From NCBI GenBank assembly GCA_025642075.2, contig JAODUO010000528.1:62001-126000 (forward strand): 64,000 nucleotides of DNA. Reading direction: 5' to 3'. Both the position numbers and the translations under genes were made by a program. The notes under the pieces are model-generated. The model was not told the origin of the DNA, made no database searches, and worked only from the letters and a program-made list of their open reading frames with translations. Origin of the DNA: Ridgeia piscesae (Eukaryota; Annelida; Polychaeta; Sabellida; Siboglinidae). This document shows, one piece after another, positions 1,041-25,200 of this stretch. How positions within the stretch are numbered: position 1 is the stretch's first letter; each line of letters begins with the position of its first letter.

Positions 1041-1202
1041 CGACTCAGAGAGCGAAAGCCACCGTTCCTCATCAGCAACATCAGATGGCAGTCTAATGTC
1101 ACAGCAGCCATTTGTTGCGATGTTCCAAGGTTTGGAGGAGAGAAGTGAGGCAGAGAAAGCCACAGAGACAGCTTGGGAGAATCACTTCACCGAGTATGGC
1201 AG
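1041..1202 (+). CDS. TBC1D9: TBC1D9-like exon (linker before TBC domain)
   Basis: A serine-rich stretch is followed by [11 protein letters not shown], which matches the family's linker just before the TBC domain. The 3' end is GGCAG followed by GTAACT. The 5' end is uncertain: acceptor AGs end at 1034 and 1040, and both give the same frame. An in-frame TGA further upstream supports a splice start here. Confidence 0.78.
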
Positions 1203-4200
1203 GTAACTAGAGATTTACTTCACTGAGTACAGCAGGTAACTAGGGAGTCACTTCACCGAGAACAGCAGGTAACTAGGGAGTCACTTCACTGAGTACAGCA
1301 GGTAACTAGGGAGTCACTTCACTGAGTACAGCAGGTAACTAGGGAGTCACTTCACTGAGTACAGCAGGTAACTAAAAATTCACTTCACTGAGCACAACAG
1401 GTAACTAGAGATTCACCTTGCTGAGCACAGCAGTTAACTAGAGATTCACTTCACTGAGCACAGGAGGTAACTAGAAATTCAATTCACTGAGCATAGCAGG
1501 TAACTAGAGATTCACTTCGCTCAGCACAGCAGGTAACTAGAGATCAACTTCACTTAGTACAGCAGGTAACTAGAGATTCACTTCACTGAGCACAGCAGGT
1601 AACTAGAGATTCACTTCACTGAGTACAGCAGGTAACGACAGAATCACTTCACTGAGTACAGCAGGCAACTAGAGATTCACTTCACAATGGGCTTATGTTT
1701 ACATTGGTAATCTTTGGACCGTTTGCTGTCTTGTACTAGCCGTTGTGTTTAATTAGCATGTGATACTGGGAAGGTGTGATTGTTATCTGCACAATTTAAG
1801 TAGTTCTTTGAATCAGTCCCCTGCCAGCAGGTATTTCATACAAGGCAGCAGGACATGCCTAACTGACTTTCCATTTTTCAATTTCATCCACTGATTAATT
1901 ACTGGGTAATGTTTGAACAGCAGCTTCATGGTCCAACTTTTCTTGGTCACTAAACACCATTGCCTGTACAGCAATATTCCCATCAGTGTGAAAAATATCG
2001 TTTACAGCATCACAAAAATATCAAATGCTGCAGTTCTTTTCAATCAATTCCAGTTCAATTCAAAATCTTTCAATTCCAGTTCGATTTATTTTGTTCCAAA
2101 TCTTTCAATTTCAATTCCCACTCCAATTCTTCAATTGATTTTAAATGGAGTTGATCAATTATTCCAATTGTTTTTGAATTAACCTCAGCCCTGCTTATGG
2201 GTGATGTTGTTTCTGGTCCGACTATCCCTTTGGTGTTTTCGATATGTGTATGTAAGTCGTGACCAAGCACTGAGACAAACGCAGCAGTAGATTTCTCACA
2301 CTGAAGAGCTATTTCAAAACAACTCAGTTACAACGCAAAGTACACTGCCAACATTCTGACAAACTACAGCTGGTGAGCTACACACCTGTACTGTGTCGTA
2401 GGTTTATTGTAACAGACAGGTGAATGTGTTGTCAAGATCGTGTTCTGTGTTGCCCTGTTGCAGGGGTATCAGCATGTACCGCACCCACACCCTGCACGAG
2501 TTGATTCAGAAGGGCGTGCCAACCAAATACCGCGGTGAAATATGGATGACCTTCTCAGGGGCACTCAATGAGGTGGGTCAAGGGTGGAGTGATTGTTTTG
2601 AAAAAAACTAATCTGAGTTTAAAATGTTTTCTAACTAAAATTATACTTAATGTTAAAGGTAACAATTTAACATTTTATAGTTATTAAATTTAGTAAAATT
2701 TATTTAGTATGTTAGTAATTTTATTTTTGGTTCTGTAAGGGCATAAATCAGTGCACAACACCTCAGCTTCCAGTTGACCAAGTGAACCCTGCCGTCAATA
2801 CCACAATGATGTGACATGTCGTGACACAGTTTAGCAATGATGACATGATCTGAGTCGAATAATAACCTGTGTGATTGTGTCTATATAGATGGCCACTGAG
2901 CCTGGCTACTACTGGTCACTGGTGGGTCAGAGTGAGGGGCGTGACACTCTGGCTGCAGAAGAAATAGAGCGTGACCTTCACAGGTCCCTGCCAGAGCATC
3001 CCGCCTTCCAGACGGAGCAGGGTATCGGAGCACTCCGGAGGGTGCTTACAGCCTATGCCTGGAGGAACCCTAACATAGGTGAGTTTTCATAGCCTATGCC
3101 TGAAGGAACCCTAAAATGGGTGTATCCTCACAGCGTAGGCCTGGAGGAACCCTAAGATGGGTGAGTCATCACAGCCTATGCCTGAAGGAACCCTAAGATG
3201 GGCGAGTCCTCATAGCATATGCCTGGACGAACCCTAGAATGGGTGAATCCTCATGGCCTATGCCTGAAGGAACCCTAAGATGGGTGAGTCCTCATAGCCT
3301 ATGCCTGGAGGAGCCCTAAGATGGGTGAGTCTTCACAGCCTATGCCTGGAGGAACCCTAAGATGGGTGAGTCCTCACAGTCTATGCATGTAGGAACCCCA
3401 AGATGGGTGAGTCATCACAGCCTATGCCTGGAGGAACCCTAAGATGGGTGAGTCGTCCCAGCCTATGCCTGGATGAACCCTAAGATGGGTGAGTCATCAC
3501 AGCCTATGCCTGGAGGAACCCTAAGATGGGTGAGTCATCACAGCCTAGGCCTGGAGGAACCCTAAGATGGGTGAGTCGTCCCAGCCTATGCCTGGAGGAA
3601 CCCTAAGATGGGTGAGTCATCACAGCCTATGCCTGGAGGAACCCTAAGATGGGTGAGTCATCACAGCCTAGGCCTGGAGGAACCCTAAGATGGGTGAGTC
3701 GTCCCAGCCTATGCCTGGAGGAACCCTAAGATGGGTGAGTCCTCACAGCCTATGCCTGGAGGAACCCTAAGATGGGTGAGTCATCACAGCCTATGCCTGG
3801 AGGAGCCTAAGATGGGTGAGTCCTCACAGCCTATGCCTGGAGGAACCCTAAGATGGGTGAGTCCTCATAGCCTATGCCTGGAAGAACCCTAAGATGGGTG
3901 AGTCCTCATAGCCTATGCCTGGAGGAGCCCTAAGATGGGTGAGTCTTCACAGCCTATGCCTGGAGGAACCCTAAGATGGGTGAGTCATCACAGCCTATGC
4001 CTGGAAGAACCCTAAGATGGGTGAGTCATCACAGCCTAGGCCTGGAGGAACCCTAAGATGGGTGAGTCATCCCAGCCTATGCCTGGAGGAACCCTAAGAT
4101 GGGTGAGTCCTCACAGCCTATGCCTGGAAGAACCCTAAGATGGGTGAGTCGTCCCAGCCTATGCCTGGAAGAACCCTAAGATGGGTGAGTCCTCATAGCC

Positions 4201-22200: not shown

Positions 22201-25200
22201 TGTATATATAAGACATCATTCCTGCTTGCAACAAGTGTATCTAGAAGACATCATTCCTGCTTGCAACAAGTGTATCTAGAAGACATCATTCCTGCTTGCA
22301 ACAAGTGTATCTAGAAGACATCATTCCTGCTTGCAACAAGTGTATCTAGAAGACATCATTCCTGCTTGCAACAAGTGTATCTAGAAGACATCATTCCTGC
22401 TTGCAACAAGTGTATCTATAAGACATCCTTCCTGCTTGCAACAAGTGTATCTATAAGACATCATTCCTGCTTGCAACAAGTGTATCTAGAAGACATCATT
22501 CCTGCTTGCAACAAGTGTATCTATGACATCATTCCTGCTTGCAACAAGTATATCTATAAGACATCATTCCTGCTTGCAACAAGTATATCTATAAGACATC
22601 ATTCCTGCTTGCAACAAGTGTATCTATGACATCATTCCTGCTTGCAACAAGTGTATCTATAAGACATCATTCCTGCTTGCAACAAGTGTATCTATGACAT
22701 CATTCCTGCTTGCAACAAGTATATCTATAAGACATCATTCCTGCTTGCAACAAGTATATCTATAAGACATCATTCCTGCTTGCAACAAGTGTATCTATAA
22801 GACATCATTCCTGCTTGCAACAAGTGTATCTATGACATCATTCCTGCTTGCAACAAGTATATCTATAAGACATCATTCCTGCTTGCAACAAGTGTATCTA
22901 TAAGACATCATTCCTGCTTGCAACAAGTGTATCTATAAGACATCATTCCTGTTTGCAACAAGTATATCTATCTATAAGACATCATTCCTGCTTGCAACAA
23001 GTATATCTATAAGACATCCTTCCTGCTTGCAACAAGTGTATCTATAAGACATCATTCCTGCTTGCAACAAGTGTATCTATAAGACATCCTTCTGGCTTGC
23101 AACAAATATATCTATGACATCATTCCTGCTTGCAACAAGTGTATCTATAAGACATCATTCCTGCTTGCAACAAGTATATATATAAGACATCCTTCCTGCT
23201 TGCAACAAGTATATCTATAAGACATCCTTCCGGCTTGCAACAAATATATCTATGACATCATTCCTGTTTGCAACAAGTATATCTATCTATAAGATATCCT
23301 TCTGGCTTGCAACAAATATATCTATGACATCATTCCTGCTTGCAACAAGTGTATCTATAAGACATCATTCCTGCTTGCAACAAGTATATCTATAAGACAT
23401 CCTTCCGGCTTGCAACAAATATATCTATGACATCATTCCTGTTTACAACAAGTATATTATATCTATACAATTTCCTCCAGAATATAAGACATAATCTGCT
23501 GCATACAACATATATTTCTATGAGGCTTCCAGTCCAGTTGACTGTGTTATAGTTTACCTTAGTTCCATTCGTAGGGAGTCTCTGGGACCTAGTTATGGAA
23601 GGAGTCAACTCATCCCGTCTCTCCGACACTGCCCACAAAAAGACAACTGTTCCAAGAATCAACCAGGTAAGCACTGGATCATTTCAAAGTGTGGTTACAA
23701 GCACAATGTCATATGTAACTGCCACAAGCGACTCCCACGTTGGTCTAGAACAGTGTGTACTATAGACAGAGCATTTCTTTAAATCGGCAAATCCCAAATA
23801 TGTTTATCTGAAGAAAGGTCCAGTTCAATGAATTGTGTAAGACCATGTGCAACATATTCAGTGATGGTGTGTTGTAGATTCAGTTCATTGGACAGTATCA
23901 GACCTTGTACATGTTCAGTGATTGTGTGTTGTAGTTCAGTTCATTGGACAGTATTAGACCTTGTACATGTTCAGTGATTGTATGTTGTAGTTCAGTTCAT
24001 TCAATGTATCAGACGTTGTACATGTTCAGTGATATGTTGAAGATTCAGTTCATTGAACTGTATCAGACCTTGTTAGCGAATCCGTACCAATGCATGTGAA
24101 TGTGTAACCTTAATTGAATGTTTGTGAATGCAGAATTTGAATGCAGATGTTTGGTGGGGGCGCAGTTGAATGTGCGTTTAAATGTGCGTTTTAATGGTTG
24201 TGTCCAAATTATGAATGTTTGTTTGTGTTATATGTGCTGTATGACTATACACTTCAGTATAATAAAATATGTATATTTTTGCATGAAATATAAAGCATAA
24301 TACTATAAAAAAGTATATTTTAAATAACAACACACAAATTACAGACATATTTATTCTCAAAAGCTGTTTACAATATGCACAATAATTATTAATAAGACAA
24401 AACAGTTTTAAGTAAGTTACGATTTAAGGCCCCTGCAACAGTATTACCAACACCATGTATGACGCTGTGTTGTTACCCGATGTCTCAATTTTCACAAAAT
24501 ATTTTATGATATTTTCCAGTAGATAGATAGATATTTAATTTTTTCAGATCAATTGTGTCCATAATAATACAGTAGATACAATATTGTAAGTATTCATAAT
24601 GATTTATTTTTGGAGTCCAGCACTGAGACCTAAAAGATCTCTCATGCTGACCACTATAACGAATACCTACATAATTGATTATAGTCTGTACATGTATTAC
24701 TGATGTTATAGAATGATAGCCTACCATTCATTCACAATCATAATTAGTATAATCATAATCACCTGCTGGATAAAATGAGTAACATTTTAGTATAAAAATA
24801 ATAATAATAATTAAGTAACTATACTTTTATTTAAATACAAGAAGATTGGCATACAATGTTATACCATCAATTATAGGTATAAAAAGAACACCGAATGGCC
24901 AGTGAAGAGTTTCATGTTAATGTGTGTGAAAAGGGAATGCTGGCTGGTAGTTTAGGGTTCACATTCGAATGTGCTAAAAAATAATCAATTGCATATGCAT
25001 GAATGCACATTGGAATGCCAGATATTTGAATGTGCATTCGAACGACATTTGTATTTGTTAACAAGCCTGGCTGTTATAGGTTCATTATGTATGATCATGA
25101 CAACATATTCCATGATGTGTGTTGTAGATTGTACATGTTCCGTGATTATGTGTTGTAGGTTCAGTTCATTGAACTGTGTAAGACCTTGTACAACATGTTC

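Follow-up and report, generated by a model that had tools for sequence, protein, structure and literature searches.

Minisatellites whose tandem unit spans an exon-intron border have been described in amphioxus, where they are called "mirages" and occur in Adh3, the globin genes BflGb6 and BflGb9, troponin C and PGBD5, according to two reports (PMC3087553, PMC3902484). These describe elements that can span either 5′ or 3′ borders, with units of about 10 to 160 bp, many but not all of which carry AG/GT, and with apparently normal splicing of the host genes; arrays of 3 and 6 units are given for BflGb6, and haplotype as well as somatic length changes are reported in amphioxus. The present work concerns a window of 64,000 nucleotides (the whole stretch of DNA that was analysed) from the vestimentiferan annelid Ridgeia piscesae (assembly GCA_025642075.2, contig JAODUO010000528.1, positions 62,001 to 126,000), in which a TBC1D9-like gene carries, at eight of its splice junctions, arrays made of the exon edge together with its own splice site. 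A sequence-only reading of the window had pointed out these eight junctions and suggested that the class might already be known from amphioxus. It is, as that of the mirages.

As in amphioxus, the tandem unit in Ridgeia spans the exon-intron border, both types of border are affected, and many but not all units keep AG/GT. Unlike the amphioxus examples, these arrays occur in an annelid rather than a cephalochordate, which places the same type of structure in another lineage. In the window they reach about 49 copies, compared with the 3 and 6 units given for BflGb6, and they affect 11 of the 52 junctions of one gene and four gene families (a fifth, represented by MOB2, is borderline), with a junction excess that is measured here. 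Copy number varies among three myosin paralogues within the one assembly. Earthworm metallothionein genes offer a further comparison, as their annelid introns are likewise full of variable minisatellites, but the mean monomer there is about 180 bp, and exon-border copying is not mentioned in the accessible portions of the report (PMC12783039). Among the literature matches listed, there was no report of exon-border minisatellites outside lancelets, most subscription journals lying outside that search. What is new is thus a second phylum for mirages and a measured junction excess, the class itself being already known.

All eight junctions are confirmed as real, and the adjoining intron of each contains junction-crossing tandem copies. 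The 3′ part of the TBC1D9-like gene (1035..26020, plus strand) has 14 exons in the window, at 1035-1202, 2464-2572, 2889-3078, 6076-6222, 6574-6685, 7814-7874, 8786-8950, 9421-9531, 9800-9898, 10620-10811, 13954-14128, 16041-16106, 23575-23666 and 25159-26020. Splice sites of the 13 window introns were set by eye, after which P0001, the protein of a relative, was aligned automatically with splicing to the window plus 60 kb upstream. This produced 26 introns for the gene, and at the 13 in the window all 26 sites were exactly those set by eye, including the eight junctions in question. The TBC1D9 protein is 86% identical to P0001 across 99% of the query, and its best named matches come from annelids, a nemertean and molluscs. 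P0001 itself has 1261 residues and is encoded on a 4,627-base contig; because so long an open frame fits in so short a contig, it probably derives from a spliced transcript. The exon-side sites agree with this protein at all 26 introns (25 automatically, and intron 8 after hand correction to a GC donor), in keeping with the earlier proposal that the copy touching the exon would be the one in use. Intron 8 (contig C528, window coordinate -12847) is apparently of the GC-AG type, and its donor bears an array of 33-bp units, no copy of which reaches 3 bits as a donor.

Tandem Repeats Finder (TRF) and alignment of junction copies placed arrays at donors 1203, 3079, 6686 and 10812 and at acceptors 6076, 8786, 16041 and 25159, all on the plus strand. 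The donor array at 1177..1685 consists of about 15 copies of a 33-bp unit (26 exon and 7 intron bases), with the real donor at 1202/1203 and a junction-copy score of 70. The next, at 3048..5047, has about 49 copies of a 41-bp unit (31 exon and 10 intron bases); its real donor lies at 3078/3079, it scores 92, and GT is kept in 47 of its 48 extra copies. A degenerate donor array at 6652..6970 contains 4-5 extra copies of a unit of about 56 bp (real donor 6685/6686, score 66), and at 10739..11449 there are about 10 copies of a 62-bp unit from which 14 exon bases are missing (real donor 10811/10812, score 65). On the acceptor side, the array at 5829..6122 has about 4 extra copies of a 57-bp unit (10 intron and 47 exon bases; real acceptor before 6076, score 65). 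That at 8050..8806 has 13 extra copies of a 53-bp unit within a 106-bp higher-order repeat (real acceptor before 8786, score 82), and all 13 keep AG, some being identical to the exon edge. The weakest of the eight lies at 14819..16048, where 28 extra copies of a 42-bp unit (34 intron and about 8 exon bases) precede the real acceptor before 16041 (score 48), and 22 of the 28 show GG in place of AG. Finally, exon 25159 has its acceptor array at 23801..24073, about 1 kb upstream, with a 57-bp unit that includes 47 exon bases (score 88); partial, low-identity copies at about 25072-25145, judged partly by eye, stand close to the real acceptor (25072..25205). The unit lengths first proposed were revised at 6076 (57 bp, not 53), 8786 (53 bp, not about 50) and 6686 (about 56 bp, not about 60).

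As the sequence-only reading had it, donor arrays are found 3′ of the site in use and acceptor arrays on its 5′ side. This polarity is not separate evidence, however, because any duplication spanning a junction would yield it as long as the coding sequence is kept.

The strength of the junction copies was judged against 2112 control pairs, in which 66 junction queries from TBC1D9 and the two other genes of the window, MOB2 and a flavin-containing monooxygenase (FMO) gene, were each compared with introns foreign to them. The highest control score was 38, reached by one pair and exceeded by none, whereas the eight junctions score 48-92. Crossing copies above every control occur at 12 of the 66 junctions, 11 of them among the 52 of TBC1D9 and one in FMO, with MOB2 supplying a borderline thirteenth. 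The TBC1D9 junctions comprise seven donors and four acceptors, so that 5′ and 3′ borders are both affected; three of the 12 lie upstream of the window and were looked at after the hypothesis had been set. Self-overlaps (score 36, offsets 12 to 30) were dropped from the results, as were CA-repeat matches at the intron 24 donor (33) and the intron 23 acceptor (30), both below the control maximum. The units are mutually unrelated, as the cross-intron controls show, which upholds the view that the arrays arose as independent events; that one mechanism lies behind them all is plausible. A single spreading repeat was rejected on the strength of the unrelated units and of a DNA search of the whole genome (628 Mb, 4875 contigs; very common words skipped), in which the 3048-5047 array found its own location only.

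A further comparison used the 30 exon bases of each junction alone against shuffled sequence. The expectation that units would align to the exon edge better than to shuffles held at six of the eight junctions (1203, 3079, 6076, 6686, 8786 and 25159) and failed at 10812 and 16041, in the first case because 14 exon bases close to the edge are missing from the unit, in the second because only about 8 exon bases are common to the copies. The donor of window exon 7 was also considered, with an exon-only score of 23 against a shuffle maximum of 20, and was dropped when the junction-copy scan and its controls gave no support.

The placement of arrays provides the second line of evidence. TRF arrays of at least 3 copies and a period of 20-130 were taken from the 26 TBC1D9 introns (52.8 kb), an overlap of up to one period being allowed. 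Seven of the 12 cross a junction, where random placement within introns would give 0.58, and none of 200,000 simulations reached seven; a conservative bound, which assigns every array the largest single placement probability, is 4.7e-5. Looser cut-offs gave 7 of 15 (0 of 200,000; bound 2.9e-4) and 7 of 18 (2.5e-5; bound 1.1e-3).

The density of such arrays had been thought exceptional for one gene. The analysis did not support this, as they recur in FMO and, at a borderline level, in MOB2, and outside the window they turn up in myosin and kinesin genes of this genome. Whole-genome family searches supplied exon positions from at least 75 myosin-head and at least 128 kinesin-motor matches. The kinesin sample (18 loci, 31 introns) was drawn by a rule blind to arrays, under which matches had to follow one another along the profile and lie no more than 1.4 kb apart; it was applied by hand, and at least one qualifying pair (C353) was missed. 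TRF returned seven rows for it, representing six arrays; none of the six is more than 8 bp from an exon match, and their placement probabilities multiply to 0.0004. The count of six treats two contiguous rows of L050 as a single array, although the second of them taken alone is 266 bp from the exon match. Judged by their sequence, the arrays of L044 and L047 and the first of L049 are unmistakable exon-edge arrays, that of L041 and the second of L049 are probable ones, and that of L050 is merely adjacent.

The myosin sample (11 loci) was not blind, some loci having been picked partly for long open frames. Splice sites taken from a generic myosin consensus were partly wrong and controls reached 70 (10 of 2756 at 38 or more), and the printed sequence was relied on instead. 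It shows two donor arrays at C285, the first copies of which are identical to the exon edge, and an acceptor array at C103. Three paralogues on C411 share one donor array at the corresponding intron; its copy number is about 38, 26 and 37 in the three, and the commonest variant differs between them. On the simplest reading, the array would predate the gene duplications and still be turning over. Two acceptor matches at C1015 were rejected as arrays, since they are duplicated exons. The locus (L022-L023) is a myosin gene with several duplicated exons over the same motor positions, as in mutually exclusive exons. Separately, the open frames that hold the motor exon matches at G000:C898:164846 and G000:C270:209864 span 1946 and 1732 codons and may contain in-frame arrays.

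These observations are best read as exon-border minisatellites of the mirage kind in an annelid, mutational by-products whose birth or persistence is biased to splice junctions, a reading to which we give a probability of roughly 70%. Each array would begin with the tandem duplication of a segment of about 17 to 85 bp spanning a splice junction. Such a duplication could be harmless, as the copy touching the exon would still splice and the extra copies would turn into intron. Replication slippage and unequal exchange would then expand and homogenise the intron copies, and purifying selection would maintain the copy in the exon. That slippage drives the expansion and that the arrays are neutral is inferred, as is the origin of the bias. 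The polarity of the arrays and the use of the outer copy need no special mechanism, because both follow from a tolerated junction duplication; the junction excess does require a bias in birth or persistence, because uniform birth with exonic removal falls short of it. Candidates for this bias are breakage at junctions linked to transcription or splicing, and a compositional preference, and the data choose neither. A stronger version is conceivable, in which minisatellites are born preferentially at splice junctions, as genuine mutational hot spots, by a mechanism linked to transcription or splicing that has acted independently in a deuterostome (amphioxus) and a protostome (tubeworm). Such a mechanism might involve, for example, R-loops, a pausing polymerase or nascent RNA bound by snRNPs at the junction, and genomes that expand minisatellites readily would merely make it visible. 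We regard this version as tentative and somewhat doubtful.

A number of results weigh against the preferred reading of junction-biased by-products. According to TRF, five of the 12 TBC1D9 arrays touch no exon; two of these (in upstream intron 8 and at 23852-24073) are junction copies by sequence, and for the remaining three (two upstream of the window and the one at 21594-23461) no exon origin was shown. In the kinesin sample, three of the six arrays are inside introns; the other three occupy outer flanks only about 100 bp long, which partly forces them to be near an exon. Simulation on identical stretches, which allows for the flanks, gives these three placement probabilities of 0.19-0.27 each, and one array (L044) has 0.86. 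The myosin placement test is weak, with five of seven arrays within 40 bp of an exon match against 2.55 expected (P 0.043), a count that omits microsatellite-like arrays and those scoring below 100 (C285 4963-5154, C421 about 1057-1152 and C103 1850-1985), and the loci C1015 and C2066 each hold one array without junction derivation.

The internal structure of the arrays points both ways. In favour of the preferred reading, in the five arrays with at least 10 cleanly compared copies (1203, 3079, 8786, 10812 and 16041), copies are closer to their own consensus than the exon edge is; against it, similarity shows no gradient from the exon to the far end. Growth seeded from the exon, in which the nearest copies would be most alike, was considered and rejected, for no such correlation appeared in these five, and repeated reseeding has likewise left no sign; a rho of 0.8 in the 25159 array is attributed to false copies within its 1-kb spacer. 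In the 8786 array, moreover, each second copy equals the exon edge, and the exon copy there does not stand outside the turnover.

Composition does little to identify the cause of the bias. A background sample (L012-L021) was made up of bases 50001-60000 of ten contigs taken at intervals, 100 kb in all, including 5,000 N. Its array units exceed their surroundings in G+C (0.50 against 0.38), and a G+C preference might favour exon sequence. Yet the array-bearing exon edges of TBC1D9 are close to the others in G+C (donors 0.51 against 0.48, acceptors 0.46 against 0.48). The motif AGGT is present at 6 of the gene's 11 array junctions and at 14 of the remaining 41 (Fisher p 0.30), and AGGT as a requirement for arrays is therefore unsupported. 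Neither are array units enriched for the 5′ splice-site motif, the mean p being 0.59 for the 15 arrays of the ten stretches and 0.50 for 16 arrays from the C528 flanks. Junction arrays are therefore not most of the genome's minisatellites but one part of a wider load, and the idea that most genomic minisatellites are donor arrays gains no support from the 5′ splice-site score.

This wider load bears on the first alternative, in which there is no junction bias at all: duplications would arise uniformly, exonic ones would be purged, intronic and junction ones would survive, and the gene would have been noticed by chance. Such an account covers both the polarity and the use of the exon copy, and it suits a genome that makes or keeps minisatellites readily, as one must conclude from the sampled 100 kb, of which 15 arrays cover 12.7%. 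The myosin set alone would be nearly compatible with it. In TBC1D9, however, it predicts 0.58 junction arrays where seven are observed, and in the kinesin sample all six arrays are near exons. Off-junction arrays are also no denser in TBC1D9 introns (5 per 52.8 kb by TRF, 3 by sequence) than the 15 per 100 kb found in the background at similar cut-offs. On balance, we consider the absence of any bias unlikely.

Another way to explain the arrays is that copies are retained as splicing aids: they might back up the real site, act as decoys or enhance splicing at weak junctions. GT or AG is kept in nearly all copies of several arrays, as noted above for 3079 and 8786, and in C. elegans one minisatellite is reported to be over-represented in the neighbourhood of alternative splicing (PMC4039745). 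Any motif would persist in a recently homogenised array, though, and AG has been lost from most copies at 16041. With decoy donors counted at 3 bits or more, 20 of the 29 in TBC1D9 intron 11 match or outscore the real donor, and 28 of the 29 are in frame and open; this intron (C528, window coordinates -5405 to -4244) consists almost entirely of a 36-bp donor array. Decoys equal or exceed the real donor in 5 of 10 cases in intron 23 and 1 of 4 in intron 18, but in none of 12 in intron 14 and none of 47 in intron 16, and the array of GC-donor intron 8 contains no decoys, all its copies falling below the threshold. Use of decoys in introns 14, 16, 18 and 23 would give a frameshift or a stop, and the same holds for 74 of the 102 decoy donors counted over all five arrays. 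This argues for accurate choice of the exon-side site rather than for use of the copies. Considering also that 54 of the 66 junctions in the same genes lack clear copies, a splicing function for the arrays appears improbable.

Tandem genomic duplication of an AGGT-containing segment reportedly creates a new intron out of exon sequence, and the arrays might accordingly be traces of intron gain. The likeness lies in a tandem duplication across a splice-like site; the difference is that here a border already in place is duplicated into an intron already in place. Under the AGGT model, the start of an intron should resemble the downstream exon and its end the upstream exon. No such resemblance was found: with 650 controls per side, not one of the 26 TBC1D9 introns scored higher than the best control at either end, and the best case, the end of intron 11 (26 against a control maximum of 28), is the donor array that fills that intron. 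The excess of AGGT at array junctions would favour intron gain, but the difference is not significant, as given above. Recruitment of array copies as exons has been modelled for amphioxus globins (PMC3087553), and could be invoked in the same sense, but we judge either route to intron gain very unlikely. Equally remote is the proposal that arrays in frame lengthen the protein by repeat peptides, by way of alternative donors or retained introns, for although the 36-bp array of intron 11 could in principle add 12-residue repeats and several myosin and kinesin exon matches lie inside open frames of 685-1946 codons, P0001 has no insertion at these sites, the four other decoy-bearing donor arrays give shifts or stops only, and the long frames of C1015 are unexplained by the arrays there.

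The window contains three genes, the other two being those that served in the controls. The minus-strand gene (27726..35069), which we take to be MOB2, was read in four exons (34903-35069, 29609-29705, 28602-28726 and 27726-28079), and its protein has a Mob1_phocein domain. Its intron 2 holds the borderline acceptor array (28712..29385, minus strand; exon edge 28726), with three scored copies (29194-29385) and a score of 38, reached by 0.0005 of the controls. The FMO gene (48493..62950, plus strand) has five exons (48493-48692, 49125-49263, 61257-61396, 61897-62074 and 62312-62950), and the best named matches of its protein are from Ridgeia piscesae (88% identity) and Lamellibrachia satsuma (77%). 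Its intron 4 carries a donor array that the sequence-only reading had not included (62034..62278, plus strand), with a unit of about 55 bp (41 exon and 15 intron bases), three extra copies at 62114-62278, the donor after 62074 and a score of 80.

Two further plus-strand minisatellites lack a link to a junction. A 35-bp array in a TBC1D9 intron (21594..23461) has no demonstrable exon-edge origin, and when aligned as a displaced donor array of exon 12 it gave p 0.056. A 38-bp array in FMO intron 2 (56729..60785), with about 105 copies over about 4 kb, matches neither junction of that intron in the junction scan. Other repeats are present as well. Related element copies at about 11590-13130 and 5070-5850 have ends that are CCGTAAATCCTGTATTACTA-like inverted repeats, and one CCGTAAATCCTGTATTACTA-ended element sits between the donor and acceptor arrays of intron 3079-6075, seemingly inserted, to the eye, into the acceptor array. 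Repeat copies or fragments whose ends approximate TTATAAGTAACATACTTACCTGGCTCC were seen by eye at about 16280-21350, 30930-31500, 33090-34750 and 50700-54480. Between MOB2 and FMO, at about 43600-48100, lies a stretch that looks by eye like a long terminal repeat (LTR) retroelement, with interrupted gag/pol-like open reading frames.

At a practical level, gene predictors and repeat maskers may be expected to fail at borders of this kind. Intron 11 of TBC1D9 constitutes a natural experiment on splice-site choice, with an exon-side donor standing beside 29 decoys, 20 of which score as high or higher. More broadly, the common occurrence of exon-border minisatellites in a second, distant phylum turns them into a testable general phenomenon, that of a mutational bias at splice junctions.

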